From positions 1-64,000 of the forward strand of contig DYJA01000018.1 of assembly GCA_020723345.1 (NCBI GenBank): a stretch of 64,000 nucleotides of DNA. Direction: 5' to 3'. A model generated the notes under the pieces. It was not told the DNA's origin, searched no databases, and was given only the letters and a program-made list of their open reading frames with translations. A program made the position numbers and the translations under genes. Every line of letters begins with the position of its first letter. Position 1 is the first letter of the stretch. Of this stretch, positions 2,551-63,409 are shown one piece after another. The DNA is from Candidatus Aquidulcis sp. (GTDB taxonomy: Bacteria > Chloroflexota > Anaerolineae > UBA4142).

Positions 2551-2581
2551 CGTTGCCGCCGGTTCCGCGCCGGAGGCAACG
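2551..2581 (+). repeat. Hairpin between binding protein and permease
   Basis: A 12-bp stem with one mismatch (2551-2562 with 2570-2581), preceded by GTAGGGGCG, lies between the binding-protein gene and its permease. There is no T tract, so it more likely slows mRNA decay or reduces read-through than fully terminates. The GTAGGGGCG leader is shared with the hairpin at 8542-8570. Confidence 0.7.
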
Positions 2582-2606
2582 TCTCGGCGTTAGATCAAGA
2601 GACACG

Positions 2607-4292
2607 ATGAAACGATTGCGCCTCAATAGTGGTCAGGCGACTTTGGCGTTCGCCGTTTTGGTATTGACGATTCTGGTAGTCTATCCGCTCGCGCAACTCG
2701 TTTACCAGAGTATTCAGTACAATCAACAGTGGTCGCTCCAAAGTTATCTCGCCGCAATGACGAGCGAAAGCAATCTGCTCGCGTTGCGGCACAGTCTCGA
2801 AGTTTCCCTCGCGGCGATGCTGGGTTCGACTGTCTTGGGGACGTTTCTCGCGTGGCTGATCGCGCGGACGGATCTGCCGGGGCGCAACTTTTTCCGCACT
2901 GCGTTCGTTTTGCCGTTTCTAATTCCGCCGTTCATCGGCGCGCTCGCGTGGTTGCAGATTCTCGGACCCGTCGGTTATCTCAACAAATTCCTTATGACGC
3001 TCACCGGCGCGAGCGAACCATTCTGGAATATTTACGGTCCCGCCGGAATCGTCCTCGTGATGATGCTGCACGAATACCCGACGGTGTTCATCAGCGTGCT
3101 GGGCGGACTGGAGCGGATGAATCCCGAACTCGAAGAAGCCGCGCAGATTTCTGGGGGGCGGATCTTTCGCGTGATGCGCGATGTTACGCTCCCGTTGATG
3201 ATGCCGACGATTGCGGCGGGCGCGCTGCTCGTCTTTATCACCGATATTGCGAATTTTGGCGTGCCCGCGATTCTAGGATTTTCCGAAAACTATTACGTGC
3301 TGACGACGCAAATTTACAACGTCATCACGCGCAGCACTCAACCCAACAGTCTGAACATCGCGGCGGCGATGTCCATTCTGCTCGCGCTCGTTTCGGGCTT
3401 GGGCATTTTTCTCCAGCGCTTTTATCTGAGCAACAAAGAATTCGCGGTCATCTCCGGCAAAAGTATGCAGCCGAATGTCGTCAAACTGGGCGCGCATCGG
3501 TACTGGCTGTTCGCGCTCGCGCTGACGCTGTTCGTGATCGCCACCGTCGCGCCGCTGGTCGCGATTTTGCTGACCGCGCTCGTGCGCGCGTACGGTTTGC
3601 CGCCGCTCCCCGAAAACTTGACGCTCCAAAATTTCTACGATGTACTGATGCTCAATCAATCCTCGCGGCGCGGCATCGTCAACAGTCTCGGTCTCGCCGT
3701 GACCGCGGCGACGATCATCAGTCTGCTCAGCGCGTTCATCGCGTACATCATCGTCAAGACGAAAATGCGCGGGCGCGCGCTGCTCGATTTCATTTCGAAC
3801 GCGCCGTACACCTTGCCCGGCACCGTCGTCGCGCTCGCGATGATCCTCGCCTGGCTCAAGCCGCTGCCGCTGATTGATTTTCGTCTGTACAACACGATTT
3901 GGATTTTGCTCGTCGCGTACGTCGCGCGCTATCTCGCGTTCGGCGTGCGGACGGCGGCGGGGTCGCTCGCGCAAGTTCATTCGTCGCTGGAAGAAGCCGC
4001 GCGCATTTCGGGCGCAGGATGGCTGCAATCGTTTCGCGACATCGTCATTCCACTGATCCGCCCCGGTCTTTTCGCCGGATGGTTTCTTGTTTTCATTCCT
4101 TGTCTGCGCGAACTGACGATCTCCGCGCTTTTGTGGTCGACGCGCAATGAAACAATTGGAGTCGTCGTGTTCAATCTGCAACAATCGGGCAACACGTCCG
4201 CGTCTGCCGCTCTCGCGGTGATTATGATTGCCGTGCTTTTGATCGCGAACCTGATCACGCGGCGATTGACCGGCGGCAAGCTGGGATATTAA
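2607..4292 (+). CDS. ABC transporter permease, fused two-domain (FbpB type)
   Basis: A 561-residue inner-membrane protein with about twelve membrane segments in two homologous halves, each carrying the EAA loop that contacts the ATPase (ELEEAAQISGG... and SLEEAARISGA...). This duplicated permease is typical of the ferric iron and 2-aminoethylphosphonate importers. The frame is open from 2553, but that extension is Arg/Pro-rich and not membrane-like, so I choose the ATG at 2607 directly before KRLRLNSG. It lies between the binding protein (75 bases upstream) and the ATPase (13 bases downstream), so it is part of the same importer. Confidence 0.93.
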   Translation: MKRLRLNSGQATLAFAVLVLTILVVYPLAQLVYQSIQYNQQWSLQSYLAAMTSESNLLALRHSLEVSLAAMLGSTVLGTFLAWLIARTDLPGRNFFRTAFVLPFLIPPFIGALAWLQILGPVGYLNKFLMTLTGASEPFWNIYGPAGIVLVMMLHEYPTVFISVLGGLERMNPELEEAAQISGGRIFRVMRDVTLPLMMPTIAAGALLVFITDIANFGVPAILGFSENYYVLTTQIYNVITRSTQPNSLNIAAAMSILLALVSGLGIFLQRFYLSNKEFAVISGKSMQPNVVKLGAHRYWLFALALTLFVIATVAPLVAILLTALVRAYGLPPLPENLTLQNFYDVLMLNQSSRRGIVNSLGLAVTAATIISLLSAFIAYIIVKTKMRGRALLDFISNAPYTLPGTVVALAMILAWLKPLPLIDFRLYNTIWILLVAYVARYLAFGVRTAAGSLAQVHSSLEEAARISGAGWLQSFRDIVIPLIRPGLFAGWFLVFIPCLRELTISALLWSTRNETIGVVVFNLQQSGNTSASAALAVIMIAVLLIANLITRRLTGGKLGY

Positions 4293-4305
4293 TGGAGTTT
4301 GTCCC

Positions 4306-5352
4306 GTGGCAACTGTAACTCTCGAACAAATCAGCAAAGCATTTGGCGCGACGTTCGCGGTGAAAGATTTTTCCGCGACGATTGCGGACGGCGAGTTCGT
4401 CACGTTTCTCGGTCCGTCCGGTTGCGGCAAGACAACCTGCCTGCGAATGGTTGCCGGGTTCATCGATCCGACGCGCGGACGCGTGTCGATCGGCGCGCGT
4501 GTCGTGTCCGATCCGGAACGAAAAATTGCGGTGCCGCCGGAAGAGCGCGGCGTCGGAATGGTTTTTCAATCGTACGCGGTGTGGCCCCACATGACGGTCT
4601 TTGCGAACGTGGCGTATCCACTCAAGATCAAATCGGTATCGAAAGAGGAACAGCGTCAACGCGTCGGGCGCGCGCTCGAACTGATGAAAATGTCCGATCT
4701 CGCGGATCGTTTTCCGCACCAACTCTCCGGCGGTCAGCAGCAGCGCGTCGCGTTGGCGCGCGCGCTGGTGATGAATCCACAAGTCTTGCTGCTCGACGAA
4801 CCGCTCTCCAATCTCGACGCCAAGTTGCGCGAAGAGATGCGGCTTGAATTGAAGCAACTGCAAAAGCAAACCGGCGTCACGATCATTTTCGTCACGCACG
4901 ATCAGATGGAAGCGATGGTGATGGCGGATCGCATCGTCGTGATGAACGCCGGAATCATTCAGCAGATCGGCGCGCCGCGCGAGATTTATCTCAAGCCCGC
5001 GAATCGTTTCGTCGGCGAGTTTATCGGCGTCGCGAATTTCCTGAGTGGGCGACGACGCGGCGATGGTTTTGCGCTGGCAGCGTCGCCGCAGATCGTTCTG
5101 CCGTTTCAGCCGCCTGCCGCGCTGACGAGCGATGCGTTGGTGATGATGGTGCGTCCGCAAGACATCGCCTTGCATCCCAGTCAAGGACAACTTGCCGCGC
5201 AGGTCGCGCAAAAAATGTTTGTTGGCGATGCGACCGAGTATTTTGTGAGTGTCGGCGGCGAGACGTTGCGTGTGCGTGGCGCGCCGCGCGAAGATTACGC
5301 CGTCGGCGCGACGGTACACTTGACGATCAGCGCGGGACAATTTTTTCAGTGA
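4306..5352 (+). CDS. ABC transporter ATP-binding protein (FbpC/PotA type)
   Basis: A 348-residue ATPase with Walker A GPSGCGKTT (36-44), signature LSGGQQQR, Walker B LLLDEP and a switch histidine in FVTHDQ. It has a C-terminal TOBE-like regulatory region (VMMVRPQDIAL onwards). The start is GTG with GGAG about 9 bases upstream, 13 bases after the permease stop. It energises the importer encoded by the two preceding genes. The length and TOBE domain fit the iron/polyamine/sugar group rather than amino-acid importers. Confidence 0.95.
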   Translation: MATVTLEQISKAFGATFAVKDFSATIADGEFVTFLGPSGCGKTTCLRMVAGFIDPTRGRVSIGARVVSDPERKIAVPPEERGVGMVFQSYAVWPHMTVFANVAYPLKIKSVSKEEQRQRVGRALELMKMSDLADRFPHQLSGGQQQRVALARALVMNPQVLLLDEPLSNLDAKLREEMRLELKQLQKQTGVTIIFVTHDQMEAMVMADRIVVMNAGIIQQIGAPREIYLKPANRFVGEFIGVANFLSGRRRGDGFALAASPQIVLPFQPPAALTSDALVMMVRPQDIALHPSQGQLAAQVAQKMFVGDATEYFVSVGGETLRVRGAPREDYAVGATVHLTISAGQFFQ

Positions 5353-5361
5353 GTCGAAACG

Positions 5362-6150
5362 ATGCGATTCGGTTCTTCAACGATGTTCTTGCGCGAAAAA
5401 CCGGTGACCGCCGCGCTCGATTTGATCGCGCGTTCCGGCTTTGTCGCCGCCGAGGTGTGGATCGAACATTTGTGGCGCAGCGAAGAGACGCCGGAGTTAA
5501 TCAAGCAGCGCGCGCGCGATCTAGGCTTGACGCTGACCGTGCACGCGACGAGTTACGATGTCAATATCTGCTCGACGAATCCGGGTATCCGCCGCGAATC
5601 CATGCGGCAAATGGAAGAATCGTTGGAGATTGCCGTGCGGCTGGGAGCGCAGGTTGTCGCAATGCATCCGGGTTTTCTCTCGTCCAGTCGCGCGTCGCTT
5701 GAAACTGCCTGGGAATTTTTGCTTGAGGCAGTTGCCGCGCTGGACGCCAACGCGGCGCGCGCTGGTTTGCGGTTGGGCGTCGAAGCGATGGAGAGACGCG
5801 CGAAAGAATTTTTCGTCTTGCCATCGGATCTGCGGCGATTGTTCCAACGCGCATGGTGCAGCACCGGGCTGACGATTGATCTCGCGCACGCGCAAACGGT
5901 GATGAATCCGCGCGATTATCTCGCGCAGATTCCCGCCGCCAAGATCATTCACGCGCATTGCAGCGATAACGCGCTCAAGCAAACCCATTTGCCGCTTGGA
6001 CGCGGCGCGCTTGATCTGCCCGCCGCGCTGACGGCGCTCGGCAAAAACTACGATGGCATTGTGATCATCGAGGGCTATGTGCCGGGGCAGGGCGAGAGCA
6101 TTGTGCCTGCGAACGCCGAGTATTTACGTACGATTGGAATGATGAGGTGA
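5362..6150 (+). CDS. Sugar phosphate isomerase/epimerase-like TIM-barrel protein
   Basis: A 262-residue protein of the xylose isomerase-like AP endonuclease 2 superfamily. Typical elements are a strand ending in TVHA, GAQVVAMHPG, an acidic strand GLRLGVEAM, TIDLAHAQ, IIHAHCSDN and the C-terminal IVIIEGY. The scattered His, Glu and Asp residues at strand ends would bind a divalent metal. It starts 9 bases after the ATPase stop and closes the importer operon, so it probably acts on the imported compound or on a product of it. The substrate is unknown. Confidence 0.85.
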   Translation: MRFGSSTMFLREKPVTAALDLIARSGFVAAEVWIEHLWRSEETPELIKQRARDLGLTLTVHATSYDVNICSTNPGIRRESMRQMEESLEIAVRLGAQVVAMHPGFLSSSRASLETAWEFLLEAVAALDANAARAGLRLGVEAMERRAKEFFVLPSDLRRLFQRAWCSTGLTIDLAHAQTVMNPRDYLAQIPAAKIIHAHCSDNALKQTHLPLGRGALDLPAALTALGKNYDGIVIIEGYVPGQGESIVPANAEYLRTIGMMR

Positions 6151-6156
6151 AAAAAC

Positions 6157-6190
6157 AGACCTGGAAGGTTTCTGCAAACTTTCCAGGTCT
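6157..6190. terminator. Bidirectional terminator hairpin between convergent operons
   Basis: A 15-bp stem with one G-T pair (6157-6171 with 6176-6190) sits just after the isomerase stop. The minus-strand side is followed by a run of six T (from the A run at 6151-6155), the plus side only by CTTCATTT. It probably terminates the carbohydrate operon arriving from the right, and partly the ABC operon. Confidence 0.7.
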
Positions 6191-6318: not shown

Positions 6319-7074
6319 TCATTTCCCGTGAACGATCTCCGCAATCGCGCGCGTGATCTTTGCCGGATCGGGATGCTGCCACACATTGCGTCCCAGCGCG
6401 ACGCCCGCCGCGCCTGCACGGATCGCGTCTTGCGCTTGTCCCAGGATCTCGGTTTCCGCTTTCGAATCGCCGCCGAGCATCAAAACCGGTACGAAACAAC
6501 TCGCGGTGAGAGATTGGAAACTCTCCGGCGTGCCGGTGTACGCGATCTTGATAAAGTCCGCGCCCATCTCCGCGCCGATGCGCGCGGCGGTCAGCAAATT
6601 TTCCGCCGACGCGTTCTCGCCTGCCGCGCCCATCAGCATCATCTCCGCGAGCAGCGGCACGCGCCATTCCAGACATTCGCGCGCGACGGCGGCGAGCGAC
6701 GCGAGACTCGCTTGTTCCTCCGCGCCGCCGATGAAACCCATCGCGACCACCGCGTCCGCGCCAAGCCGCACCGCGTCGGCGACAGAAAACAACTGGCTCA
6801 TCGCGCCCCAGTTTCCGCCGAGCCGCGTCGTGCCTCCGTCGACGCGCAGAATCAGTCCCGCGCGTCTGAACGCGCCGCCGTAGGCGGACGCGATTCCGGG
6901 GGATGTGAGAATCGCGTCCGCGCCCGCGGCAACAACTTGCGCGATCAGATTTCCGGGGTCGCGCAAGTTGCCAAGCGGACTCGCGCCGAACAAGCCGTGA
7001 TCCATCGCGATCACAACCGTGCGATTGTCCGCGCCGAAGATACGATGCCAGCGCAGCGATTTGATATTGTTCAT
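6319..7074 (-). CDS. Class I aldolase of the DhnA/LsrF/DeoC superfamily
   Basis: A 251-residue TIM-barrel aldolase. VVIAMDHGLFG near the N terminus, the substrate-binding TSPGI loop, the Schiff-base lysine in ADFIKIAYTG and the phosphate-binding GVALGRN near the C terminus match the DhnA fructose-bisphosphate aldolase/LsrF group. The frame is open to 7146, but the extra 24 residues are not conserved-looking and come from a repeat cassette, so I start at ATG 7074. It is the last gene of the SorC operon, downstream of the importer, and would cleave the phosphorylated sugar or ketose. The LsrF alternative (AI-2 degradation) is not supported by other lsr genes. Confidence 0.85.
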   Translation of the reverse strand: MNNIKSLRWHRIFGADNRTVVIAMDHGLFGASPLGNLRDPGNLIAQVVAAGADAILTSPGIASAYGGAFRRAGLILRVDGGTTRLGGNWGAMSQLFSVADAVRLGADAVVAMGFIGGAEEQASLASLAAVARECLEWRVPLLAEMMLMGAAGENASAENLLTAARIGAEMGADFIKIAYTGTPESFQSLTASCFVPVLMLGGDSKAETEILGQAQDAIRAGAAGVALGRNVWQHPDPAKITRAIAEIVHGK

Positions 7075-7092
7075 TGATTGTTCCGATGAATT

Positions 7093-7150
7093 GCGTATGG
7101 CGAATCGCGTATGGCAAAACACTCCAAGCCATCTGCCATTTGCCATACGC
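7093..7150. repeat. Iterated hairpin cassette, unit GCGTATGGC
   Basis: GCGTATGGC is repeated on the left (7093 and about 7107), and the reverse complement GCCATTTGCCATACGC closes the right side. It fills the junction between the aldolase start and the end of the binding-protein gene. Confidence 0.65.
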
Positions 7151-7156
7151 TGTTTG

Positions 7157-8515
7157 CTACTGCCCCGCCAAGTTTTTGTTGATCACCGTCGCCGCTGCGT
7201 CCAACGCATCTTTCGGACTCGCGGTGCCGAGTTCAACTTTTTCGACGGCTTTGCGGAGTTGCTCGTCGCTGTTGCCGAGTTCGCTGAACAGTGGAATCGC
7301 GCTGGAGTACTTGGTCGCATCCACGAGCGCCTGCGCGTTCGGCGATGTCTTGATGTAATCTTTGAGCGCGGCGTTATCGGTCACGGATTTGCGGAGCGGC
7401 AAGTAGCCGGTCTGGATGAACAAGTCGACCGTGTTCTCGGCGTTTGTCATCCATTGCGTAAATTCCCACGCGGCTTTTTGTTTTTCCGGCGTGCTCTTGA
7501 AGATCAGGATGCTCGCGCCGCCGAGCGGTTCGGAGCAACTCTTCTTGCACGGCAGCGGCGCGACGCCGACTTTGAACTTGGCTTCCGATTGAATCGAGCC
7601 GAGCGACGCGGACGAGCGCATGATCATGCCGAGTCTGCCAGCCGTGAAATCGGCGCCCGCTTGTCCATGTTGATTCGACGGCATGACTTTGTGTTTGTTT
7701 ACGAGGTCGCCCCAGAATTGCAGCGCTTCGATTCCTTCCGCGCTGTTGTAGACAACCTTCTTGCCGTCGTCGCTCAGAATCTTGCCGCCGTTCTGCATGA
7801 TCATCGCGCTGAGATACCAGTGCGTGTCGGTGTGGGTGTTGAAACCCCACTGTCCCGGTTTGGTCAGCGCTTTCGCGGTGGTGACGAGTTCGTCCCAGTT
7901 CGTCGGCGGTTTGTTCGGATCGAGTCCGGCGGCGGTGAACAGATCTTTGTTGTAGTACAGCACCGGCACGCTGTTGTTGAACGGCATCGAGATGATCTTG
8001 TTGCCGAATTTGTTGTAATCCCAGAACCCAGGATGAATGTCGTCGAGGTCTTGCTTGCCGACCAAATCGGCAATTGGCACGACTACACCCGAGTCTGCCA
8101 TCGTGGGCGCGCCGCCCATCTGCGCGACATCGGGCAGCGTCTTCGCCGTCGCTGCTGCCAGGAGTTTTTGCGCGATGTCCGCGTAACTGCCCTGGAAGAT
8201 CACGTCCACCTGGATGTTCGGGTTCGTGTCGTTGAACTTTTTCACCATCGCCTCGAACACCTTGCCCGTGTTGCCGCTCAGCGCGTACCACAAAGTGAGT
8301 TTCACTTTCGCGGCAGGCGGCGCGGTCGTCGGCGCGACAGTTGGCGCAGGCGCAGTCGTCGGTTTGGGCGCGTCAGTCGGCTTTGCCACGGGTACGTCAG
8401 TCGGTTTCGGCGCGGCGGTCGGTGGCGCGGCAGTCGGCGCGGGTGTCGGCGCAGGCGCGCACGCCAGCGCGATCGCGCCGAGCATGACGAGTGTGAACAG
8501 TACGAGTTTTTTCAT
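7157..8515 (-). CDS. ABC sugar transporter substrate-binding lipoprotein
   Basis: A 452-residue lipoprotein with signal lipobox LALAC (Cys19), a Pro/Thr/Ala linker to about residue 70, and an MalE/UgpB-type domain starting VKLTLWYALSG. The KLTLWYA start and total length fit the sugar-binding family 1 proteins that partner MalFG-type permeases. The two permease genes lie immediately upstream in the same operon. No ATPase gene is present in the operon, so a shared MsmK/UgpC-type ATPase encoded elsewhere is likely. The linker would tether the domain away from the membrane surface. Confidence 0.92.
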   Translation of the reverse strand: MKKLVLFTLVMLGAIALACAPAPTPAPTAAPPTAAPKPTDVPVAKPTDAPKPTTAPAPTVAPTTAPPAAKVKLTLWYALSGNTGKVFEAMVKKFNDTNPNIQVDVIFQGSYADIAQKLLAAATAKTLPDVAQMGGAPTMADSGVVVPIADLVGKQDLDDIHPGFWDYNKFGNKIISMPFNNSVPVLYYNKDLFTAAGLDPNKPPTNWDELVTTAKALTKPGQWGFNTHTDTHWYLSAMIMQNGGKILSDDGKKVVYNSAEGIEALQFWGDLVNKHKVMPSNQHGQAGADFTAGRLGMIMRSSASLGSIQSEAKFKVGVAPLPCKKSCSEPLGGASILIFKSTPEKQKAAWEFTQWMTNAENTVDLFIQTGYLPLRKSVTDNAALKDYIKTSPNAQALVDATKYSSAIPLFSELGNSDEQLRKAVEKVELGTASPKDALDAAATVINKNLAGQ

Positions 8516-8541
8516 TTCTCCTCCTTTGAGAGATGGATTGG

Positions 8542-8570
8542 GTAGGGGCGCAATTCAATTGCGCCCCTAC
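8542..8570. repeat. Perfect 14-bp palindromic hairpin at the permease/binding-protein junction
   Basis: GTAGGGGCGCAATT and its exact reverse complement are separated by a single base. It starts at the stop codon of the upstream permease. No T tract follows, so mRNA stabilisation or dosage control of the binding protein is more likely than termination. Confidence 0.85.
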
Positions 8571-9412
8571 TATTGTTTAATTCCCGTTCCAGCAATTCCT
8601 TGCACGAATTGTTTTTGCACGACGAGGTACACGATGACGACAGGAAACGTGATGAACACCGCGGCTGCCATCAACGAGCCCCATTGACTCGCGGTTTCCT
8701 GTCCGACGAAATAGCGCAAGCCGATTTGCACCGTCCGCATGTCGTTGCTGTTTGTGACGATGAGGGGCCACAGGTAACTGTTCCAGTTGCCCATAAACGT
8801 AAAAAGCGCGAGCGTCGCCAGCGCGGGGCGCGACAGCGGAATGACGATGCGCCACAAAAAGCCGAGTTTGCCGCAGCCGTCGAGAATCGCCGCGTCTTCG
8901 AGTTCGTTCGGCAGCGTCAGAAATGATTGACGCAACAAAAAGATGCCGAACGCGCTCGCGACGAACGGCGCGATCAGCGCAAAGTACGTGTCGAGTCCGA
9001 GCGCGGGCGAAATGTCGCCGAGATTGCGTAGGACGAGAAACGACGGGATGATCGTCATCTGATGCGGAATCATCATGCTGCTGAGATAGATCGCAAAGAG
9101 CGCGTCGCGCCCGGGGAAGCGAATCCGCGCGAACGCGAATGCCGCGAGCGAGCCGGTGATCAGCGTTCCCAGCGTCACCGCGAGCGCGATGACGATGCTG
9201 TTGAGAAAATAACGCGCGAACGGCGCGCCTTGCCACGCACGCACATAGTTCTGCCAGATCAATTCCGACGGGATCCATTGCGGCGGATAACTGAAAACTT
9301 CGCTCTGACTTTTGAGCGATGTCGAGAGCATCCACGCGAACGGCAACACCATCGCGAGCGCGCCGAGCGTGAGAAGCGTATGGATGGAGAGGGATTCAAG
9401 TCTTTTGATCAT
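8570..9412 (-). CDS. ABC sugar transporter permease (MalG/UgpE type)
   Basis: A 280-residue inner-membrane protein with six predicted membrane segments and the EAA loop in LPNELEDAAILDGCG. The C-terminal VVQKQFVQGIAGTGIKQ is the characteristic end of MalG/UgpE/LacG permeases. The frame is open to 9781, but the extension contains repeat-cassette sequence, so the ATG at 9412 (MIKRLESLS) is chosen. It pairs with the permease encoded directly upstream and with the binding protein downstream. Confidence 0.93.
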   Translation of the reverse strand: MIKRLESLSIHTLLTLGALAMVLPFAWMLSTSLKSQSEVFSYPPQWIPSELIWQNYVRAWQGAPFARYFLNSIVIALAVTLGTLITGSLAAFAFARIRFPGRDALFAIYLSSMMIPHQMTIIPSFLVLRNLGDISPALGLDTYFALIAPFVASAFGIFLLRQSFLTLPNELEDAAILDGCGKLGFLWRIVIPLSRPALATLALFTFMGNWNSYLWPLIVTNSNDMRTVQIGLRYFVGQETASQWGSLMAAAVFITFPVVIVYLVVQKQFVQGIAGTGIKQ

Positions 9413-9427
9413 TGGTTGCCATTTGGA

Positions 9428-9491
9428 GTATTCAGTGTTCAGTATCCAGTATTCAGTGACTGGAAACTGGAAACTGAATACTGAACACTGA
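9428..9491. repeat. Iterated hairpin cassette, unit GTATTCAGT
   Basis: GTATTCAGTGTTCAG is followed by more GTATTCAGT-like units, then an inverted arm of ACTGGAAACTGGAAACTGAA units ending in ACACTGAC. It fills the gap between the two permease genes almost completely. Confidence 0.7.
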
Positions 9492-9492
9492 C

Positions 9493-10398
9493 TTACTGAT
9501 AATGCACTTTCGAGCCCAGCATCTTGTTCTGGATCAACGTCAGTCCGAGAATGATCAGGAACAACACGATTGCCAATGCGGAACCGTAACCCATATTGAA
9601 TTGCTGAAACGCCTGTTGGTACAGGTAGTACACGATGACGGTTGTCGAGCCAATTGGTCCGCCTTGCGTCATCACGTGAAATTCCGTGAACGACTGAAAT
9701 GAATTGATCACCGCCATGATCAAAATCAGGAAGGTCGTCGGCGTGAGCAGGGGCCAGGTGACGTGGCGGAAAAGTTGCCAACGATTCGCGCCGTCAATTT
9801 GCGCGGCTTCGTACAGATGTTGCGGAATATTCTGCAAGCCCGCGAGATAAATGATCACGTTGTACCCCAGACCCTTCCAGACGCCCAGGATGATCAGCGC
9901 GGGCATCGCCCAACGCGGATCGTTCAGCCAGCGAATCGAAGGCAAGTGCAGGAGGTTGAGCAAATAATTCATCAAGCCGACATCGGGATGATAAATCCAC
10001 ATCCACACGACCGAGACCGCGACCATCGAGGTGACCGTCGGCAGAAAGAACGCGGTGCGATAGATCGTCCGCGCGCGCAAGGGGCGATTCAGCAGCAGCG
10101 CGATGAAAAGCGAAACCGCCATCCCCGTCGGAATCGCGCCGACCGCGAAGTAAATCGTGTTTCCAACGGCTTGCCAAAAATCTTCCGACGTGAGCAATAA
10201 CTCGTAATTCCCCAATCCGAAAAACGTCGGCTCGCCGCGCATGATGCGCCATTTGAAGAACGATAGCCCAAGCGCGTACGCGACGGGAAAGTACGTGAAC
10301 ACCGCGAGGATAATGAAACTCGGCGCGAGAAACGCATAGCCCGCCAGCCATTCCGTCCACTGGCGACGTTGTTTGAGGGAAACGGGAAAGACTGTCAT
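9493..10398 (-). CDS. ABC sugar transporter permease (MalF/UgpA type)
   Basis: A 301-residue membrane protein with six segments; EAA loop in PQHLYEAAQIDGAN; C terminus with LTLIQNKMLGSK, typical of UgpA/LacF. The start is uncertain. ATG 10398 (MTVFPVSLK) is preferred because the more upstream candidates at 10434 and 10479 are encoded by repeat-cassette sequence. It is the partner of the MalG-type permease downstream. Confidence 0.92.
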   Translation of the reverse strand: MTVFPVSLKQRRQWTEWLAGYAFLAPSFIILAVFTYFPVAYALGLSFFKWRIMRGEPTFFGLGNYELLLTSEDFWQAVGNTIYFAVGAIPTGMAVSLFIALLLNRPLRARTIYRTAFFLPTVTSMVAVSVVWMWIYHPDVGLMNYLLNLLHLPSIRWLNDPRWAMPALIILGVWKGLGYNVIIYLAGLQNIPQHLYEAAQIDGANRWQLFRHVTWPLLTPTTFLILIMAVINSFQSFTEFHVMTQGGPIGSTTVIVYYLYQQAFQQFNMGYGSALAIVLFLIILGLTLIQNKMLGSKVHYQ

Positions 10399-10436
10399 CA
10401 GATTGATCCAAGGACGTGTTCCGTGTTCCGTCATTA

Positions 10437-10494
10437 CATATCTCGCAACACGCAGCACGAACCACGCATCACGTATCACGCATCACGAGTTCGC
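10437..10494. repeat. One-armed iterated repeat, unit ACGCATCACGT
   Basis: Several CGCAACACGCAGCACG and ACGCATCACGTATCACGC units lie between the permease start and the isomerase gene and run into it. The last codons of the isomerase gene (Val-Met-Arg-Asp-Thr, stop) are made of this repeat. Confidence 0.6.
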
Positions 10495-11305
10495 GCATCG
10501 CCGCGAAACTCTCCACCATCCGCTCGTGCAGTCGCTCGACGCGCTGCGCGCGATAGCCGTTGATCTCCATCACCACGTCGCCTGCAAAGTCGACACGGGC
10601 AAGCGCGCGCAAATCGGCTTGCCAGGGCACGTTGCCGTACACCAGTGGGAAATGATCTTCGCCGGCGGCGTTAATATCGTGAATGTGAACGTGCCGCACC
10701 GCGCGTAGAAAATCATCAGTGGGCAATTCAGTGTAACCGAGCAAGTAATCGTGCCCCAAGTCCCAACAAATTCCAAGACGCGGCTCGCGCAGAGCGCGCA
10801 TTGCGCGCACGATGTCGAGCACTTCGTCGCGGCTTTCGCCCGTGCGCGTGAACGGCGGCTTGTGGTTCAGAATCTCGAGCATCGGACGCACGCGCGGCGT
10901 TTCAGCGAGCACCCATTCGAGAAACGATTCCGTGTCGCGGCGCAATTCCGCGCGCGTCGTTTCCGCGTGCGCGCCGTGAATGACGAGCGCGGAATCGAAA
11001 TGCTGCTGCTCCGCCAAGCGTTCGGCAAGTTCAAGCGCGGGCGCGAACATTTTTTGAATCGCGTCGCGCCGCGTCGTCGCAAATCCTGCGAGATTGAACG
11101 GCGCTTGGTACGGCGCGTGAAAATGACAACGATAGCCCGCGTTCACACATTCTTCCGCGAGCGCGCGCATTTCCGCCCATTCGTCCGTGTTTGGATGCAG
11201 CGTAAATTCCAACACGCTCATTCCTGCCGTTTTGAGTGGCGCAAGGAATTGTTCGCGCGTGCTGTTCGTTAGCCATTTGGGGTGCAAGCCAAATCCCAAG
11301 TCCAT
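10469..11305 (-). CDS. Sugar phosphate isomerase/epimerase-like TIM-barrel protein
   Basis: A 278-residue member of the xylose isomerase-like TIM-barrel superfamily. Visible elements include YRCHFHAPY near residue 60, SALVIHGAHAETTRAE, PMLEILNHK, GICWDLGHDYLL, VRHVHIHDINA and VVMEINGY, which supply the His, Glu and Asp residues of the metal site. It is not closely similar to the isomerase at 5362. Its position between the glycohydrolase-like gene and the importer suggests it isomerises the imported or released sugar. Its last five codons are derived from a repeat cassette. Confidence 0.85.
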   Translation of the reverse strand: MDLGFGLHPKWLTNSTREQFLAPLKTAGMSVLEFTLHPNTDEWAEMRALAEECVNAGYRCHFHAPYQAPFNLAGFATTRRDAIQKMFAPALELAERLAEQQHFDSALVIHGAHAETTRAELRRDTESFLEWVLAETPRVRPMLEILNHKPPFTRTGESRDEVLDIVRAMRALREPRLGICWDLGHDYLLGYTELPTDDFLRAVRHVHIHDINAAGEDHFPLVYGNVPWQADLRALARVDFAGDVVMEINGYRAQRVERLHERMVESFAAMRELVMRDT

Positions 11306-11318
11306 GTGTGTCCTGATT

Positions 11319-11366
11319 CGTGATGCGTGATGAGTGAAACGTGAAGGTCACGTTTCACGTTTCACG
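11319..11366. repeat. Iterated hairpin cassette, unit GTGAAACGTGA
   Basis: CGTGATGCGTGATGAGTGAAACGTGAA is mirrored by TTCACGTTTCACG after a short loop. It overlaps the last codons of the ADP-ribosylglycohydrolase-like gene. Confidence 0.7.
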
Positions 11367-12334
11367 AGTCCTCGCGCGACCGCCGCCAACTCCAACCCAT
11401 TCACGCGTTCGACTTCGCACACCATCGCCGCGTCTAGCGCGTCAATGCCGCGCAGCGCGCCCGCGAGCGCGCCGACAATCGCGCCGAGCGTGTCGGTATC
11501 GCCGCCGGCGTTTGCTGCCGCGAGGAGCGCCGATATCGGCTCGCCGTTTGCCGCGCGCAAAAGCGCGAACGCGGATGTGATCAATTCCCACGGCGCTTCG
11601 CCGGTGCCGATCACTTCATACGCGAATCGCGCCGCGTCGCGCGGCGACATTCCCGCGACGGTGCGCATCGCCCACGCAATTCGTTGATCGAGCGGCGGCG
11701 TCCAACTCCACGCGCCGAACGCGCTGCCGATGCGCGCGCCCTCCGCTGCCGCGTCCGCCATCGTTTCGATGGTCGCGTTCGATTCAAGCGCGGCGGAGAC
11801 CGCAAACGCGATTGCCATCGCGCCGCTGATCGCCGCGTGCGTGTTGTGCGTTGGTACGCACGATGCGACAGCTTGCTCGATCAGTTTGTCGCGCGAGGCG
11901 AACGCCAGCGCGACCGGCGCGACGCGCATCGCCGCGCCAATCGTCTCGCCGCGTCCAGTGGATTCGACAGGCGCGCCCGCGGCGATCGCGTCGAGCGCGG
12001 CGCGCGTCGCTTTGCCAAGAAAATTGTTATCGCGGACACGCGACGCGCGCGACCACGCGAGGAGTTTTTGCGCGAGGCGATTCGGATCAATCGCGCCGTC
12101 ATCGATCAAAAGTTGCGCGAGCAGCAGTGCTTGGTCGGTGTCATCGCTCACCGAGCCGCGCGGCAAGTTGTGATGCGGATGCCGCGCGTCGATCGTCGTC
12201 AAGCCGCGAATTTCGCCGTACCATTCCGCGATCAGTTGCGGCGTCAGCATTTCGGTCGGCAAGCCCAGTGCGTCGCCGAGCGCGAGTCCGGCGAGACAAC
12301 CATAAACTTTGTCGAAGGAAATTTCAGTTCGCAT
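11348..12334 (-). CDS. ADP-ribosylglycohydrolase family protein
   Basis: A 328-residue all-helical protein of the ADP-ribosyl-hydrolase (DraG/ARH) family. It shows GCLAGLALGDALGLPTE near the N terminus, the metal-site SDDTDQALLLAQ around residue 60 and GGDTDTLGAIVGALAG near residue 280, the two Asp-rich magnesium ligands of the family. Known members remove ADP-ribose from proteins or hydrolyse related glycosides. Inside a sugar operon, cleavage of an N- or O-glycosidic ribose-type substrate is more plausible than protein de-ADP-ribosylation, but this is inference. It overlaps the methyltransferase gene upstream by 11 bases. Confidence 0.9.
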   Translation of the reverse strand: MRTEISFDKVYGCLAGLALGDALGLPTEMLTPQLIAEWYGEIRGLTTIDARHPHHNLPRGSVSDDTDQALLLAQLLIDDGAIDPNRLAQKLLAWSRASRVRDNNFLGKATRAALDAIAAGAPVESTGRGETIGAAMRVAPVALAFASRDKLIEQAVASCVPTHNTHAAISGAMAIAFAVSAALESNATIETMADAAAEGARIGSAFGAWSWTPPLDQRIAWAMRTVAGMSPRDAARFAYEVIGTGEAPWELITSAFALLRAANGEPISALLAAANAGGDTDTLGAIVGALAGALRGIDALDAAMVCEVERVNGLELAAVARGLVKRET

Positions 12335-13124
12335 TGCGTTTCTGCGCGATAAACAAAACCGCGACGTATGGTCTTTCGATGAATCCGCCGTGCCGCTCGA
12401 TTACTTGCGCCACACCATCAAAAAGATGCTGTCTGACATTTGGCGCAAGCAGGAGATGATCGGAGTACGTGTTGAGCAAACCGAGATATTGCCTTGTGTC
12501 GTACCGCGCCGACCAGGGAAATGTGCGTACCTGAACGCGCTCAAAACAACCGCTCTCGTTGATTGCCGTTTCGACCCGATGGATCAATTCATCCATCGAT
12601 GAATCCAACGGCGTTGATACCATATCGGGTGCGCGTTCCCGGTATACCCGATCTAAGGCGCGCGCGATGTCGCTGTTTAGCGGAGGATAGCGATTCCAAA
12701 ATAACGCAAGATGTCCGCCGTCCCGGAGCGCGCGTGCGGCTTTGGCGTAGCCGGTCTCTTTCGGGATCCAATGAAACGCTTGCGCGGAAGTAACCAGATC
12801 GAATTCGTTCGCGCGTTCGCGCCACTCTTCAAACCGCGCGATTTCAAATGCGACACGATACGCCTTCAATCTTTGCGCGGCAACGGCGACGAGATTTTCC
12901 CCCGGTTCGACGCAGACAATTGAAAAACCGCGCCGCGCGAACATCAAGGTTGCCTTGCCGGTGCCGCTGCCAACTTCCAGAATTTTCGCGTTCGGCGCGA
13001 TGCCTGTTTCTGAAATGATCGTTTCGATCAATGATTCTGGATAATCGGGACGATAGGTGTCGTAGAAATCGGCAACGCCGTCGAACGTTTGGCTTTCTTT
13101 CTTCCAATCACGTGTATTGCTCAT
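12324..13124 (-). CDS. Class I SAM-dependent methyltransferase
   Basis: A 266-residue Rossmann methyltransferase with motif I KILEVGSGTGKATLMFA around residues 45-60, an acidic end to strand 2 (VCVEPG), motif post-I around EFDLVTSAQAFHWI, and a lid region with FWNRYPP. It resembles the Methyltransf_11/25 group acting on small molecules. The start codon overlaps the stop of the alcohol dehydrogenase by four bases (ATGA), showing translational coupling. Its substrate is not apparent; a role in the surrounding carbohydrate operon is only positional. Confidence 0.85.
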   Translation of the reverse strand: MSNTRDWKKESQTFDGVADFYDTYRPDYPESLIETIISETGIAPNAKILEVGSGTGKATLMFARRGFSIVCVEPGENLVAVAAQRLKAYRVAFEIARFEEWRERANEFDLVTSAQAFHWIPKETGYAKAARALRDGGHLALFWNRYPPLNSDIARALDRVYRERAPDMVSTPLDSSMDELIHRVETAINESGCFERVQVRTFPWSARYDTRQYLGLLNTYSDHLLLAPNVRQHLFDGVAQVIERHGGFIERPYVAVLFIAQKRNAN

Positions 13125-14158
13125 GGTGAGAGACTTGTCACCATCACCGATTTGATGTCGTGTTCGATGGACGTGTTTCGAAACGCGTCGAGCAAATCAT
13201 CGAACTGCACCGCGCGCGTGACGATGCCGTCGAGATCGAGCGCGTGGGCGTTTACCAAATCCACCGCCTGTCGAAAATCGTCGGGACCGAAACCGAACGT
13301 GCCGAGCACGCGCACTTCGTCGTAGTGAATTCGATACGACGATAAATTCAACAACTCTTTCGACGGCAGTCCCGCAAAAATGTTGACGCTGCCGCCGCGC
13401 GCGACACATTGCAGCGCGTCTTCGACGAGGCGCGTGTCCGCGACGGAGAGCATTACTTTGTCCGTGCCGTAGCCGTTCGTCAGTCGCTTCACTTCCTCGA
13501 TCAAGTCCGTCGCGCGCGGATCGATCGCCGCGTCCGCCACGCGTTGCGCGCGCGCGCGTCGCGCGGGCGTGACGCCGCTGACGATGATCGGTTGCGCGCC
13601 GATGTGCCGCGCGAGTTCGGCTTGCAGCAAGCCCATCGCGCCGTCGCCGATGATGAGGAGCGAATCGCGCGCGGTGAGAGCAATCGCGTGCAGACCGTGA
13701 ATGCAACACGCAAGCGGTTCGAAGAGCGCGCCGGTCGCGTCGCTAATGTCCGCGTTCAATTTGAACATCCCGCGCTGAACGAGGCGCGGCGGCACGCGGA
13801 CGAACTCGGCGAATCCGCCGGGCTCGATAAATGCTTCGTACAATTTTTCGCACAGCGAATAATTTCCGCGTTGACAAAAATAGCACTGTCCGCAACCCAG
13901 GTACGGCGCAACCGCGACGCGCTCGCCGACCCGCCAACCTGAAACACCCGCACCGATTTCCGCGATCACGCCGACGATTTCGTGCCCCAGCACCGCGCCG
14001 ACGGGAATGAGCGGATGTCCGCGCGCGAACGTTTTGAGATCCGTCGCGCAAATGCCGCACGCAGTCACGCGCAGCACGACCGCGCCCGAACCTGGGTGTG
14101 GCGCGTCGCTTGTTTCCAACTTTAATTGCTGCGGACCGATGTATCGCCACAGTTTCAT
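13121..14158 (-). CDS. Zinc-dependent medium-chain alcohol/polyol dehydrogenase
   Basis: A 345-residue MDR dehydrogenase. It shows the catalytic-zinc Cys in VTACGICATD and the GHE motif (AVLGHEIVG). The four-Cys structural zinc lobe is CGQCYFCQRGNYSLC around residues 95-110, and the NAD-binding glycine motif is LIIGDGAMGLLQAE. The family covers sorbitol, threonine, galactitol and related dehydrogenases. In this SorC operon it most likely oxidises a polyol or sugar. It is translationally coupled to the methyltransferase and follows the NAD-kinase-like gene. Confidence 0.93.
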   Translation of the reverse strand: MKLWRYIGPQQLKLETSDAPHPGSGAVVLRVTACGICATDLKTFARGHPLIPVGAVLGHEIVGVIAEIGAGVSGWRVGERVAVAPYLGCGQCYFCQRGNYSLCEKLYEAFIEPGGFAEFVRVPPRLVQRGMFKLNADISDATGALFEPLACCIHGLHAIALTARDSLLIIGDGAMGLLQAELARHIGAQPIIVSGVTPARRARAQRVADAAIDPRATDLIEEVKRLTNGYGTDKVMLSVADTRLVEDALQCVARGGSVNIFAGLPSKELLNLSSYRIHYDEVRVLGTFGFGPDDFRQAVDLVNAHALDLDGIVTRAVQFDDLLDAFRNTSIEHDIKSVMVTSLSP

Positions 14159-14179
14159 TCAATTCCCCTGATTCATATT

Positions 14180-14245
14180 GGACACTGATAAACACTGATG
14201 CACACTGATTTTTCTATCTGTGTTTATCTGTGTTCATCCGTGTCC
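14180..14245. repeat. Iterated hairpin cassette, unit ACACTGAT
   Basis: GGACACTGATAAACACTGAT plus one more unit on the left, TTTTTC loop, then ATCTGTGTTTATCTGTGTTC and CGTGTCC on the right. It joins the NAD-kinase-like gene end to the dehydrogenase start and overlaps the last codons of the former. Confidence 0.75.
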
Positions 14246-15256
14246 CGAAGAATCTTCCTGATCTTTAGTGCGCACTACAAGCGCGTTGATGCATTTTCGT
14301 TTCACGCCAATCGTCACCGTATCGCCGCGCGACAAAATCTTCAGCGGATTGCCGTCGACGCAGAGCGCGACGCCGTTGCGCAAACCGGTCGCGTGAATCG
14401 TGCTGTTCTCGTCGAAACTGGCATACCGCGAGACGAACGGCTCATCGCGCATCAGCTCTTCCGCGTTCGCGATCATTCGCACGAGCGGCTGACTGCCGAC
14501 GAGACAGCCCGCAGCCAGATCAAGATACGCGGCGAGACATGCTTGTCCCGCAATTGCTTTGCCGAAGAATCGCGAGTCGGGAAATCCGCAGAGCAGCGTG
14601 CCAACTTGATCGCCGTGCGCGATCTCGATTGCGCCGTTCGGCGATTCGCGCCAGACGCGCGTCGCGCCGGTGAAAATCGTTTCCGATTTTCCAGGAATAT
14701 TTTCGCCTGCGATTTTTGGCGCGACTCGAACTTCGGCTAGTTGATCGTTAATGGTTGCCAGCACGGTCGTGCTGATGACGACATCGTTGAACGCGATGCC
14801 AAGCGTTTCGCCGTTCGCGCCTGCGATCAGCGCAGTGAGCGCGCGTGGTTCGAGTTGCGCGTTCGTGAGCCGCGCGATCTCGTCGCCGCGAATTGTGACG
14901 AGTCTGCCGACATTCGCCGATCCGACGCCGACGCCGAGAATCGGCACGCGCGACGCGACGCGAAAGAGTGTGAACGCGACGTCCGCCATCGTTCCGTCGC
15001 CGCCGACGACTGCGATCAGGTCGACGCCGCGCGCGATCATCTGCGCGACAAGCGCGGGCGTGCGAGCGCGACCTTGCGCGGGCGCGTAATCGAGCGGTTC
15101 GACGCGCAAGCCCGTGAGCGCGTCTGCGCCCATTTCGCCCGCGCCGACGAGCGTGATCTCTGGCGAGAGCGTTTCGATTAGTTGACGCGCGATCCGCGCG
15201 TTGGATTCACCGCCGCGTCCCGCGCGCGGATTGACGACGAGTCCGAGTTTTGACAT
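14234..15256 (-). CDS. ATP-NAD kinase-like protein (AcoX-type family)
   Basis: A 340-residue protein beginning MSKLGLVVNPRAGRGGES, the start of the AcoX/NAD-kinase-like family, with the GGDGT motif in AVVGGDGTMADVAF around residue 110. True NAD kinase (NadK) is shorter and differs downstream. Members near acetoin genes (acoX) and in other dehydrogenase operons have no firmly established reaction, so NADP supply to the adjacent dehydrogenase is a reasonable but unproven role. The frame is open to 15310. I choose ATG 15256, which overlaps the SorC gene by 50 bases; the extension is Arg/Ala-rich. Confidence 0.82.
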   Translation of the reverse strand: MSKLGLVVNPRAGRGGESNARIARQLIETLSPEITLVGAGEMGADALTGLRVEPLDYAPAQGRARTPALVAQMIARGVDLIAVVGGDGTMADVAFTLFRVASRVPILGVGVGSANVGRLVTIRGDEIARLTNAQLEPRALTALIAGANGETLGIAFNDVVISTTVLATINDQLAEVRVAPKIAGENIPGKSETIFTGATRVWRESPNGAIEIAHGDQVGTLLCGFPDSRFFGKAIAGQACLAAYLDLAAGCLVGSQPLVRMIANAEELMRDEPFVSRYASFDENSTIHATGLRNGVALCVDGNPLKILSRGDTVTIGVKRKCINALVVRTKDQEDSSGHG

Positions 15257-16232
15257 CGCGTTTTTCATTGCGCGCCGCGCGTTCGATGATGCCGCGTGCG
15301 GCGATTGCATCGGTAACGAGTGTTTTGATATAGCCGCCGCGCAGCGCGCCTTCCAGCGCGTCGATTTTATTCGCGCCGCCTGCCACGGCGATCACGCGCT
15401 CAATCGCTTTGATTTGGCGCAGCTCGATTCCCAGGATTGCGGGAACGGCGGGCGGACACGCGCGACCATTCCAATCAAAAAAGCGCATACAGAGATCGCC
15501 GACCGCGCCCGCGTCAAGCAAACGTTTCTGATCGCGCGGGCGCAGATAGCCGACGAACAGCATTTGCACTTCGCTGTGGACGTCCAGGTTGCCGACGCCA
15601 ACGAGCGCGACGTTGATTTTTTTCCATTGCTCGACGACGCGGCGGACGTCGCTTTGCGCGGTGAGCGCGGCAAGCGCGGTTTGGCTTTCCAAGACAGCGG
15701 GCGCATACAAACATTCCCAGGTTCCGCCATACGCGGTAGCAAGTTGTTGCGCGAGTTCATTCACTTGAAACGACGGCGCGACTTGTCCCAGCCCGCCGAC
15801 GAGCGGCAGAACGTGCGGCGGTGTTTTGAGCGGCGCGGGCGTGAGCGAATTGACGACTTGGTGCAGCGTGCGACCCCAGCCGATGCCGACGATGTCACCG
15901 CCTTTGATGGTTTGGGTGAGATGGCGCGCGGCGGCTTGACCCAGGCGGCGGCTGACGACGCGCTCACCCTCCGTGGGACTGGCTGGCACGACAATCGCGG
16001 CGCGCAATCCGAACGCGTCAATCAATTCGCGTTCGAGCGCGTGATCGCTGGCGAAGGGATCGCGGATCGTGATTTGCACGATGCCGAGTTCGCGCGCGCG
16101 TTGGAGCAGCCGCGCGATTTTGGGGCGGGAGAGTTTCAGCGCGTCGGCGATTTGTTCTTGCGTTTGATTCTGTTCGTAGTAGAGGCGGCTGATCTGAAGG
16201 AGCAGCGCGCGTTCGTCGGTGGATTTGGACAT
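15207..16232 (-). CDS. SorC-family sugar-binding transcriptional regulator
   Basis: A 341-residue regulator. The N-terminal helix-turn-helix (QTQEQIADALKLSRPKIARL, residues about 24-43) is followed by a phosphosugar-binding SorC domain with GIGWGRTLHQVV and LPLVGGLGQ. It is the first gene of the ten-gene minus-strand carbohydrate operon. A near-perfect 29-base palindrome lies between the promoter and the start codon, so autorepression with a phosphorylated sugar as inducer is the natural model. Family knowledge: SorC, DeoR-like CggR and LsrR all sense sugar phosphates. Confidence 0.93.
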   Translation of the reverse strand: MSKSTDERALLLQISRLYYEQNQTQEQIADALKLSRPKIARLLQRARELGIVQITIRDPFASDHALERELIDAFGLRAAIVVPASPTEGERVVSRRLGQAAARHLTQTIKGGDIVGIGWGRTLHQVVNSLTPAPLKTPPHVLPLVGGLGQVAPSFQVNELAQQLATAYGGTWECLYAPAVLESQTALAALTAQSDVRRVVEQWKKINVALVGVGNLDVHSEVQMLFVGYLRPRDQKRLLDAGAVGDLCMRFFDWNGRACPPAVPAILGIELRQIKAIERVIAVAGGANKIDALEGALRGGYIKTLVTDAIAARGIIERAARNEKRDVKTRTRRQSARGTRR

Positions 16233-16260
16233 TGAGAATTTGTTCTGAACAATTGCTCAA
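16232..16260 (-). promoter_or_regulatory. Palindromic operator of the SorC operon
   Basis: TTGAGAATTTGTTC and GAACAATTGCTCAA flank a single central T; 12 of 14 positions are symmetric. It lies immediately downstream of the -10 and directly before the SorC start codon, an ideal place for autorepression. Binding by this SorC protein is inference. Confidence 0.85.
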
Positions 16261-16264
16261 TCAG

Positions 16265-16293
16265 ATTATACTACGTTTGGCGTGCTGTGTCAA
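16265..16293 (-). promoter_or_regulatory. Consensus sigma-70 promoter of the SorC operon
   Basis: On the minus strand TTGACA (16293-16288) and TATAAT (16270-16265) are separated by exactly 17 bases. It should be strong when the downstream operator is free. It drives the sorC-like gene and, by tight spacing, the nine genes after it. Confidence 0.9.
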
Positions 16294-16343
16294 TAAAAAA
16301 AGAAACCCGTTTTCTCCCCTTCGGGGAAAACGGGTTTCTTGTG
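16294..16343 (-). terminator. Rho-independent terminator of the ArsA-to-phosphodiesterase operon
   Basis: AAGAAACCCGTTTTC and GAAAACGGGTTTCTT form a 15-bp stem around an inner CCCC/GGGG element; on the minus strand a T-rich tail (TTTTTTT) follows. It sits 10 bases after the phosphodiesterase stop and directly before the SorC promoter, insulating the two operons. Confidence 0.9.
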
Positions 16344-62257: not shown

Positions 62258-63409
62258 ATGGAAAACTCAAACTCACTCGGCGTCGTTGAACGAAAGTATT
62301 TTGCATTTGCGCAAGATGCGCCGATGCGACTCGACAGCGGCGAAACGCTGGGACCGATCACGCTGGCGTACGAAACGTACGGACGACTGAACGCCGAACG
62401 CGACAACGCGATCCTGATCGTCCACGCGCTCTCCGGCGACGCGCACGCGGCAGGTCTCACGCCGGATGGCAAACTCGGTTGGTGGGACGATTGCATCGGA
62501 CCCGGCAAGGCGTTCGATACGAACAAATACTTTGTGATTTGTTCGAATGTGATTGGCGGCTGTCAAGGTTCGACGGGACCCGGTTCGATCAATCTGCAAA
62601 CCGGCAAACCGTACGCGCTCGGTTTCCCGGTGCTCACGATTGCTGATATGGTGCGCGCGCAGCGTCACTTGATCGATCACCTGGGCGTCGAAAAATTGCT
62701 GGCGGTCGTCGGCGGCAGTATGGGCGGGATGCAGGTTTTGCAGTGGACAGTCAGTTATCCTGATCGCGTCCTTGCCGCGCTGCCGCTCGCGACGACTGCG
62801 CGTCACTCGCCGATGCTGATCGCGTTCAGCGAAGTCGGGCGGCAGGCAATCTACGCGGATCCAAACTGGCGGAACGGCGATTACTACGACAACGGCGCGC
62901 GCCCGAACACCGGACTCGCGCTCGCGCGCATGATCGGACACATCACGTACCTCAGTGAAGAATCGATGCACCAAAAGTTCGGTCGGCGGCTGGAAGCGCG
63001 CGAACATTTCGGTTACGATTTCAGCACCGATTTCGCGATCGAGGGTTATCTGCACTACAAAGGCAATCGCTTTACCGAACGCTTTGACGCGAATTCGTAC
63101 CTCTACATCACCAAGTCCATGGATTATTTCGATTTGGCAAATGGAAATGGCAGTCTGACCAAAGCGTTCGAAAAATGCGCGGCGTTGATGTACCTCGTCG
63201 TCTCGTTTACCTCCGACTGGCTTTATCCAACGTATCACTCGAAAGAAATGGTGAGCGCGTTGACCGCCATTGGCGCGGATGTGACGTACTGCAATCTGCA
63301 ATCAACGTGGGGACACGACGCGTTTTTGCTCGAAGTCGAAACGATGACGCGCTTGATTTCCGATTTCCTCGACCGCGTCGTGTCGCATCACGGGATTCAA
63401 CTGCCATGA
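62258..63409 (+). CDS. metX: Homoserine O-acetyltransferase
   Basis: A 383-residue alpha/beta hydrolase: GPITLAYETYGRLNAERDNA, HALSGDAHAAG, nucleophile Ser154 in VGGSMGGMQVLQW, catalytic Asp320 in FTSDWLYP and His353 in GHDAFLLE. This is the MetX triad. It acetylates homoserine for MetY. The start ATG 62258 follows GGGGA; the longer frame upstream is the repeat cassette. Some MetX proteins use succinyl-CoA; acetyl is assumed from the MetY partner. Confidence 0.95.
   Translation: MENSNSLGVVERKYFAFAQDAPMRLDSGETLGPITLAYETYGRLNAERDNAILIVHALSGDAHAAGLTPDGKLGWWDDCIGPGKAFDTNKYFVICSNVIGGCQGSTGPGSINLQTGKPYALGFPVLTIADMVRAQRHLIDHLGVEKLLAVVGGSMGGMQVLQWTVSYPDRVLAALPLATTARHSPMLIAFSEVGRQAIYADPNWRNGDYYDNGARPNTGLALARMIGHITYLSEESMHQKFGRRLEAREHFGYDFSTDFAIEGYLHYKGNRFTERFDANSYLYITKSMDYFDLANGNGSLTKAFEKCAALMYLVVSFTSDWLYPTYHSKEMVSALTAIGADVTYCNLQSTWGHDAFLLEVETMTRLISDFLDRVVSHHGIQLP

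Follow-up and report, generated by a model that had tools for sequence, protein, structure and literature searches.

Gene content and borders of the SorC operon

In a 64,000-nucleotide stretch of the Chloroflexota bacterium Candidatus Aquidulcis sp. (assembly GCA_020723345.1, contig DYJA01000018.1, positions 1 to 64,000; hereafter the window), ten co-directional genes on the minus strand (16293-6319) constitute one predicted transcription unit, in which adjacent genes overlap or are closely spaced. The unit encodes a SorC repressor, an AcoX-like protein, a dehydrogenase, a methyltransferase, an ADP-ribosylglycohydrolase-family protein, an isomerase, two permeases, a solute-binding protein and an aldolase. 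The original prediction, made from the sequence alone, had named genes of these families at this place, and each was confirmed by the open reading frames and by profile matches. Its description of the set as unusual is supported. Apart from the methyltransferase, the set occurs in six other Chloroflexota loci. A literature search for the set found no description of it; as far as that search reaches, no such combination of genes was known before, and each part comes from a known family. Judged by its sequence, the locus is probably a conserved DeoR-like regulon for a glycoside, likely a nucleoside-like one. The features of the unit, from its 5' to its 3' border, are as follows.

16295..16338, minus strand: terminator-like hairpin with T-run, belonging to the upstream gene and marking where the unit is bordered on its 5' side (read directly in the sequence; not in the program-made hairpin list)
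16265..16293, minus strand: sigma-70 promoter TTGACA-17-TATAAT, 12/12 consensus matches, directly after the hairpin of the upstream gene
16233..16259, minus strand: predicted 27-bp operator palindrome directly 5' of the SorC start codon; equivalent palindrome in 7/7 loci
15207..16232, minus strand: SorC/DeoR-subfamily repressor (PF04198, 223.1 bits, cut-off 27; HTH_36, 27.2 bits)
14234..15256, minus strand: AcoX-like protein, NAD-kinase/diacylglycerol kinase (DAGK) fold, proposed sugar kinase (PF01513, 40.8 bits, cut-off 25.5; PF00781, 35.4 bits)
13121..14158, minus strand: zinc-dependent medium-chain dehydrogenase (PF08240/PF00107)
12324..13124, minus strand: class I S-adenosylmethionine-dependent methyltransferase, lineage-specific accessory (PF13649)
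11348..12334, minus strand: ADP-ribosylglycohydrolase-family hydrolase of the yegU-like subfamily, proposed glycosidase (PF03747, 203.3 bits)
10469..11305, minus strand: xylose-isomerase-like TIM-barrel isomerase/epimerase (PF01261, AP_endonuc_2)
9493..10452, minus strand: CUT1-type permease A, start codon uncertain (PF00528, BPD_transp_1)
8570..9412, minus strand: CUT1-type permease B (PF00528, BPD_transp_1)
8542..8570, no strand assigned: palindromic repeat, dispersed in the genome (18 copies) and here separating permease B from the binding protein
7157..8515, minus strand: extracellular solute-binding lipoprotein (PF13416, SBP_bac_8)
6319..7074, minus strand: DhnA-type aldolase, LsrF/archaeal class I fructose-bisphosphate aldolase-like (PF01791, DeoC/LacD, 132.7 bits)
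6157..6190, no strand assigned: convergent terminator-like hairpin, 3' border of the unit (program-made hairpin list)

No gene for a transporter ATPase was found inside the operon. The SorC start codon (16232-16233) immediately follows the operator and is preceded by no evident Shine-Dalgarno sequence.

Conservation across Chloroflexota

Genome contigs searched with the AcoX-like protein as query gave 14 loci. Relatives of this protein were found in 5 of 20 genomes of the order, own genome included, and among 400 genomes of the phylum in the own genome only (at 1e-10); viral contigs and plasmids yielded none. Six further loci carry the operon in the same gene order: L021 (taken as genome G414), L022 (G419), L023 (G420), L025 (taken as G413), L045 (G406) and L046 (G416). 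Weaker matches (L028-L034) and loci without operon neighbours (L024, L026, L027) were left out as operon relatives. Since six other loci share the gene order, the operon is not a chance assembly.

All seven loci have genes for SorC, the AcoX-like protein, the glycohydrolase, the two permeases and the binding protein, and the AcoX-like gene immediately follows SorC in every one; the L046 AcoX-like frame ends at residue 335, and that stop is its natural end. The dehydrogenase is likewise found in 7/7 loci, the L023 copy being truncated to 47 residues where its contig ends. Isomerase orthologues occur in six loci, with another protein of the same Pfam family in L023. The methyltransferase, which had been counted as part of the set, is indeed present in the window operon but lies outside the conserved set: it has no tblastn match in the six relative loci and therefore appears to be accessory (1/7 loci). 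The aldolase gene adjoins the operon in four loci, as its last gene in the window and in divergent orientation to SorC in L021, L022 and L025, and in a fifth genome it is linked by an operator alone, which makes 5/7 genomes with a link to SorC by position or operator; no link of either kind was found in G406 and G420. Pyruvate dehydrogenase genes beside L021 look like ordinary ones and were not counted with the operon.

The SorC/DeoR regulator and its predicted operator

The expected SorC control is supported by the PF04198 match and by the predicted operator palindrome before SorC in 7/7 loci. The nearest solved relative of the window repressor is DeoR of Bacillus subtilis (8r7y, E 9.5e-55), and the NCBIfam equivalog for B. 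subtilis-type DeoR scores 243.6 bits against a cut-off of 420. The palindromes preceding the seven SorC genes follow the pattern TGARMRDWTGY-N5-RCAWHYKYTCA and lie near the promoter wherever a promoter is visible. Genome-wide, this pattern yielded 28 sites in the seven genomes at up to two mismatches (8 with none, 2 with one and 18 with two), versus 7 for the reversed-pattern control; the seven operon sites fit the pattern by construction, and most of the others are at chance level. A site in the window itself (62287-62313, two mismatches) was discarded because it lies inside a gene that we take to be metX-like.

One of the sites with two mismatches, on contig G416:C150, which is another contig than that of the operon, precedes the ATG of an aldolase gene by 66 bp. 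The encoded protein shares 71% identity with the divergent aldolase of L021 and 72% with that of L025. Because this off-contig aldolase of a relative carries the same operator, we assign the aldolase to the predicted SorC regulon.

The operators of L021, L022, L025 and L046 match 13 of the 14 bases of the DeoR operator as given in PMC11229326, and the G416 aldolase site matches 12/14. For comparison, none of 20000 random 27-mers from the window reached 13 matches, 4 reached 12 and 173 reached 11.

A further operator-like site, with no mismatch, is located upstream of one amidohydrolase gene in the G416 region downstream of the operon.

The ADP-ribosylglycohydrolase-family protein

The window glycohydrolase matches PF03747 and retains intact SDDT and GGDTDT motifs. 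Its scores fall far below the equivalog cut-offs for DraG (87.8 of 337 bits) and Tri1 (57.4 of 490 bits), so ADP-ribose itself found no support as the substrate. A hidden Markov model built from the seven operon glycohydrolases scored six relatives from proteobacterial plasmids at 226-290 bits, versus 29-100 bits for the retrieved Chloroflexota paralogues. In a tree of 31 rows (proteins of >200 aa at 1e-8 only; E. coli YegU not included; the window protein recurs as L087), the operon and PfkB-linked rows are separated from 17 paralogue rows with support 84/97, on a branch that is not starred and with some rows long or partial. The GGDTDT motif is present in 13/14 subfamily rows versus 0/17 paralogue rows, several of which are fragments. 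By these comparisons the operon glycohydrolase groups as a member of the PfkB-linked (yegU-like) subfamily.

Among 53 plasmid records matched by the glycohydrolase, six proteobacterial loci were opened. A PfkB/ribokinase-family kinase gene lies beside the glycohydrolase gene in all six, once with a permease gene between them; the kinase is annotated in five loci and was read by eye from the open reading frames in L038. The transporters in these loci are of nucleoside, cytosine/nucleobase or Pot type. Together with the DeoR-like regulator, this subfamily context supports a ribosyl or nucleoside-like compound, the substrate first suggested, as the lead. In staphylococci, ADP-ribosylglycohydrolase, permease and ribokinase genes are listed together (PMC3637587), and the function of the E. 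coli yegTUV operon is described as unsettled (PMC10819704).

The AcoX-like protein

The AcoX-like protein scores above the Pfam cut-offs for both NAD_kinase and DAGK_cat. With the more specific models it reached 29 of 316 bits for the NAD-kinase equivalog and 22 of 118.65 bits for lipid kinases of the YegS/DgkB type (TIGR00147). Its GGDGT motif is intact, and GGDGT with 33 further columns is invariant across nine aligned AcoX-like relatives (alignment A1, which includes L024, L026 and L027 and leaves out the L046 protein). Structure prediction, made for this protein alone, gave a model with a mean predicted local distance difference test score of 84.7; it matches NAD kinases with Z 18.8 (root-mean-square deviation 4.4, 260 aligned residues) and the DAGK-type protein DgkB with Z 18.0 (3.9, 259 aligned). 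Each of the seven genomes has at least one NAD_kinase match besides the AcoX-like one. Among the matches listed, such a match is above the cut-off in at least 5/7 genomes, falls below it in G413 alone and outscores the AcoX-like one in the six other genomes.

The original prediction had noted no obvious sugar kinase and concluded that the phosphorylated inducer must arise otherwise. We found no support for this. The AcoX-like protein has the GGDGT motif intact, its predicted fold is that of NAD kinase/DAGK, and its gene stands where PfkB stands in related loci; since it takes the kinase place, the absence of a kinase is probably wrong. Sugar phosphorylation is the leading candidate activity, because a kinase fold sits here, in operons whose hydrolase relatives use PfkB.

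Importer, isomerase, dehydrogenase and aldolase

The equivalog models of the UgpABE/UgpB importer score 151 of 335, 183.7 of 297 and 138.9 of 411 bits. In the isomerase, the E, D, H and E motifs, to which we presume a metal-binding role, are kept in 6/6 orthologues. The nearest solved relatives of the dehydrogenase are a putative zinc-dehydrogenase and threonine dehydrogenases. In the aldolase, the catalytic lysine in the FIK stretch and the GG and GRN stretches align with archaeal fructose-1,6-bisphosphate (FBP) aldolase and LsrF. Its scores lie below the equivalog cut-offs for class I FBP aldolase (140.1 of 430 bits), LsrF (135.9 of 297) and 2-amino-3,7-dideoxy-heptulosonate synthase (197.5 of 299.45), and below that of subfamily NF005556 (218.5 of 241).

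Proposed pathway and alternative interpretations

The sequence itself shows the gene set, the promoter and predicted operator, the conservation, the place of the aldolase in the regulon and the subfamily relations; from these we infer the substrate, the inducer, the catalytic steps and their order as follows. The reading that we tentatively prefer, as a good possibility somewhat short of a likely one, is a single SorC/DeoR-repressed unit that imports and breaks down a glycoside, whether nucleoside-like or of another kind. Uptake through the CUT1 importer would use an ATPase borrowed from elsewhere, and the ADP-ribosylglycohydrolase-family enzyme would cut the glycosidic bond. The TIM-barrel isomerase could then convert the released sugar to a ketose, the AcoX-like protein of NAD-kinase/DAGK fold could phosphorylate it, and the DhnA aldolase would cleave the ketose phosphate to triose phosphate and an aldehyde, which the zinc-dehydrogenase may reduce. 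Equally, the dehydrogenase could act first and oxidise the sugar before phosphorylation. A ketose phosphate is placed at the centre because the combination of isomerase, kinase, aldolase and dehydrogenase resembles the logic of fucose- and deoxyribose-type pathways. The phosphorylated sugar would be the inducer that frees SorC from its 27-bp site where transcription starts, and the methyltransferase may be a local accessory. It is possible, if rather unlikely, that the operon represents a new pathway for a modified nucleoside or riboside, with an ADP-ribosylglycohydrolase-fold enzyme as nucleosidase and an AcoX-family protein of NAD-kinase/DAGK fold as sugar kinase.

Several observations weigh against breakdown of a nucleoside-like glycoside by this route. 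Breakdown of plain ribose would not call for an isomerase, a dehydrogenase or an aldolase. The nearest solved relatives of the binding protein are sugar-glycoside binding proteins and UgpB, whose ligands are presumably sugar glycosides or glycerol-3-phosphate. The lysine of the DeoR motif QLKGG, which we take to be the Schiff-base lysine binding deoxyribose-5-phosphate, is replaced by valine in the window SorC and by non-lysine residues in 7/7 proteins; the inducer is therefore probably bound in another manner than in DeoR. Only 11/14 bases agree with the DeoR operator of PMC11229326 in the operators of the window and L045, and only 10/14 in that of L023. In L023, L045 and L046 no aldolase gene was found close to the operon, G420 has no aldolase match at 1e-15, and the window aldolase shares only 39-40% identity with the divergent ones. 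Finally, annotation classes AcoX-like proteins with the NAD kinases, and the NAD-kinase and DAGK fold matches of the model are about equal.

The binding-protein relatives, together with a dehydrogenase nearest to threonine/sorbitol-type enzymes, would suit an ordinary polyol or oligosaccharide operon, in which the zinc-dehydrogenase acts first on a polyol or sugar and the glycohydrolase on a non-ribosyl glycoside. The inducer would then come from an unlinked kinase or be a central metabolite, as for CggR of the SorC family, which responds to FBP and dihydroxyacetone phosphate (DHAP) (PMC11229326). Such an operon would leave the AcoX-like gene directly 3' of SorC in 7/7 loci unaccounted for, as well as the equally constant glycohydrolase that groups with the PfkB-linked subfamily, and we consider it unlikely. 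It is quite improbable that the AcoX-like protein serves as the operon's own NAD kinase and feeds NADP to its dehydrogenase, with the sugar kinase, if any, elsewhere. The PF01513 match, NAD kinases among the top fold matches and the description of AcoX as a predicted NAD kinase (PMC9676059) speak for it; the low equivalog score, the tied NAD-kinase and DAGK fold fits and the higher-scoring NAD_kinase match in six of the seven genomes speak against it. Least probable is a true ADP-ribosyl hydrolase in an operon that salvages ADP-ribose or reverses protein ADP-ribosylation: despite PF03747 and the intact SDDT and GGDTDT motifs, the DraG and Tri1 scores are low, the operon is without an ADP-ribosyltransferase or nudix gene, and the neighbours are a sugar importer and an aldolase.

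Two protein families without a settled function thus meet in the proposed glycoside regulon. One comprises the yegU-like glycohydrolases, which the loci examined here and those in the literature put next to ribokinase-type genes in Proteobacteria and staphylococci; the other is AcoX, known from acetoin loci. Because the regulon also has a regulator of known type, an operator that can be read and an aldolase, the candidate reactions to test are few, and they could establish the function of both families. If true, the modified-nucleoside or riboside pathway would be the first metabolic role of this kind for either orphan family.

Comparison with known systems

The B. subtilis dra-nupC-pdp operon serves the catabolism of deoxyribonucleosides; the product of dra is deoxyribose-phosphate aldolase, and that of nupC is a nucleoside transporter. 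That operon resembles ours in its SorC/DeoR-type repressor and in its logic of import plus aldolase, and four of our seven loci have operators nearly identical to part of the DeoR operator (PMC11229326). Here, by contrast, the importer is of CUT1 type, the aldolase of DhnA type, a glycohydrolase and a putative AcoX-like kinase are added, and the QLKGG lysine of DeoR is absent. The likeness to the E. coli yegTUV operon (regulator GgaR/YegW) lies in our glycohydrolase, which groups with the PfkB-linked proteins, one of them a Pantoea protein encoded with a nucleoside permease; E. coli YegU itself is not in our tree. The yegTUV operon differs by a GntR regulator, a PfkB kinase and the lack of isomerase, dehydrogenase and aldolase. 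The Lsr (autoinducer-2) system, which has a phosphorylated inducer, is similar in its SorC-family regulator LsrR and its LsrF-type aldolase family, whereas all Lsr equivalog scores are below cut-off here, and the kinase and importer differ. The L-fucose/L-rhamnose and 5-deoxyribose (DHAP shunt) pathways follow the logic of isomerase, kinase, aldolase and aldehyde dehydrogenase; the enzyme families differ throughout, and the likeness is in logic only. A staphylococcal cassette trio, likened by annotation alone, combines a glycohydrolase-family gene with a ribokinase-family kinase and a cytosine/purine-type permease (PMC3637587); it has no extra enzymes, and an AcoX-like kinase is absent from the published table.

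The own genome holds a second CUT1 importer cluster, L112 (G000:C80:10000-29900), with two glycohydrolase genes, CitF/CitE-like genes and a true ribokinase. Its permeases are 39-41% identical to those of the operon; unlike the operon, it has the ribokinase (363.9 bits, cut-off 299.65), a LacI regulator and the citrate-lyase-like genes, and its glycohydrolase L097 groups with the paralogues in another subfamily. Relatives of L112 with several glycohydrolase genes were found in G420, G413 and G414.

Neighbouring and paralogous clusters

The palindrome of 28-29 bp at 8542-8570 (GTAGGGGCGCA...TGCGCCCCTAC) has 18 exact copies in the own genome versus 0 for the reversed control and is a dispersed repeat resembling repetitive extragenic palindromic (REP) elements. 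Window positions 2553-6150 contain a cluster convergent to the operon, which encodes a two-domain ATP-binding cassette (ABC) permease together with its ATPase and a further AP_endonuc_2 isomerase. In G416 the operon is followed downstream (L046 1-2815 and L076, G416:C90:13000-29500) by genes for SsnA-like and deaminase-like amidohydrolases and aldehyde ferredoxin oxidoreductases, together with a methenyl-tetrahydromethanopterin cyclohydrolase (PF02289) and a Mer-like luciferase-family protein. Paralogous DhnA aldolases adjoin luciferase-like proteins, as read by eye, in L079, L080 and L081, with amidohydrolases and ABC permeases also beside the aldolase in L080 and L081, which suggests another uncharacterised catabolic cluster in these Chloroflexota.

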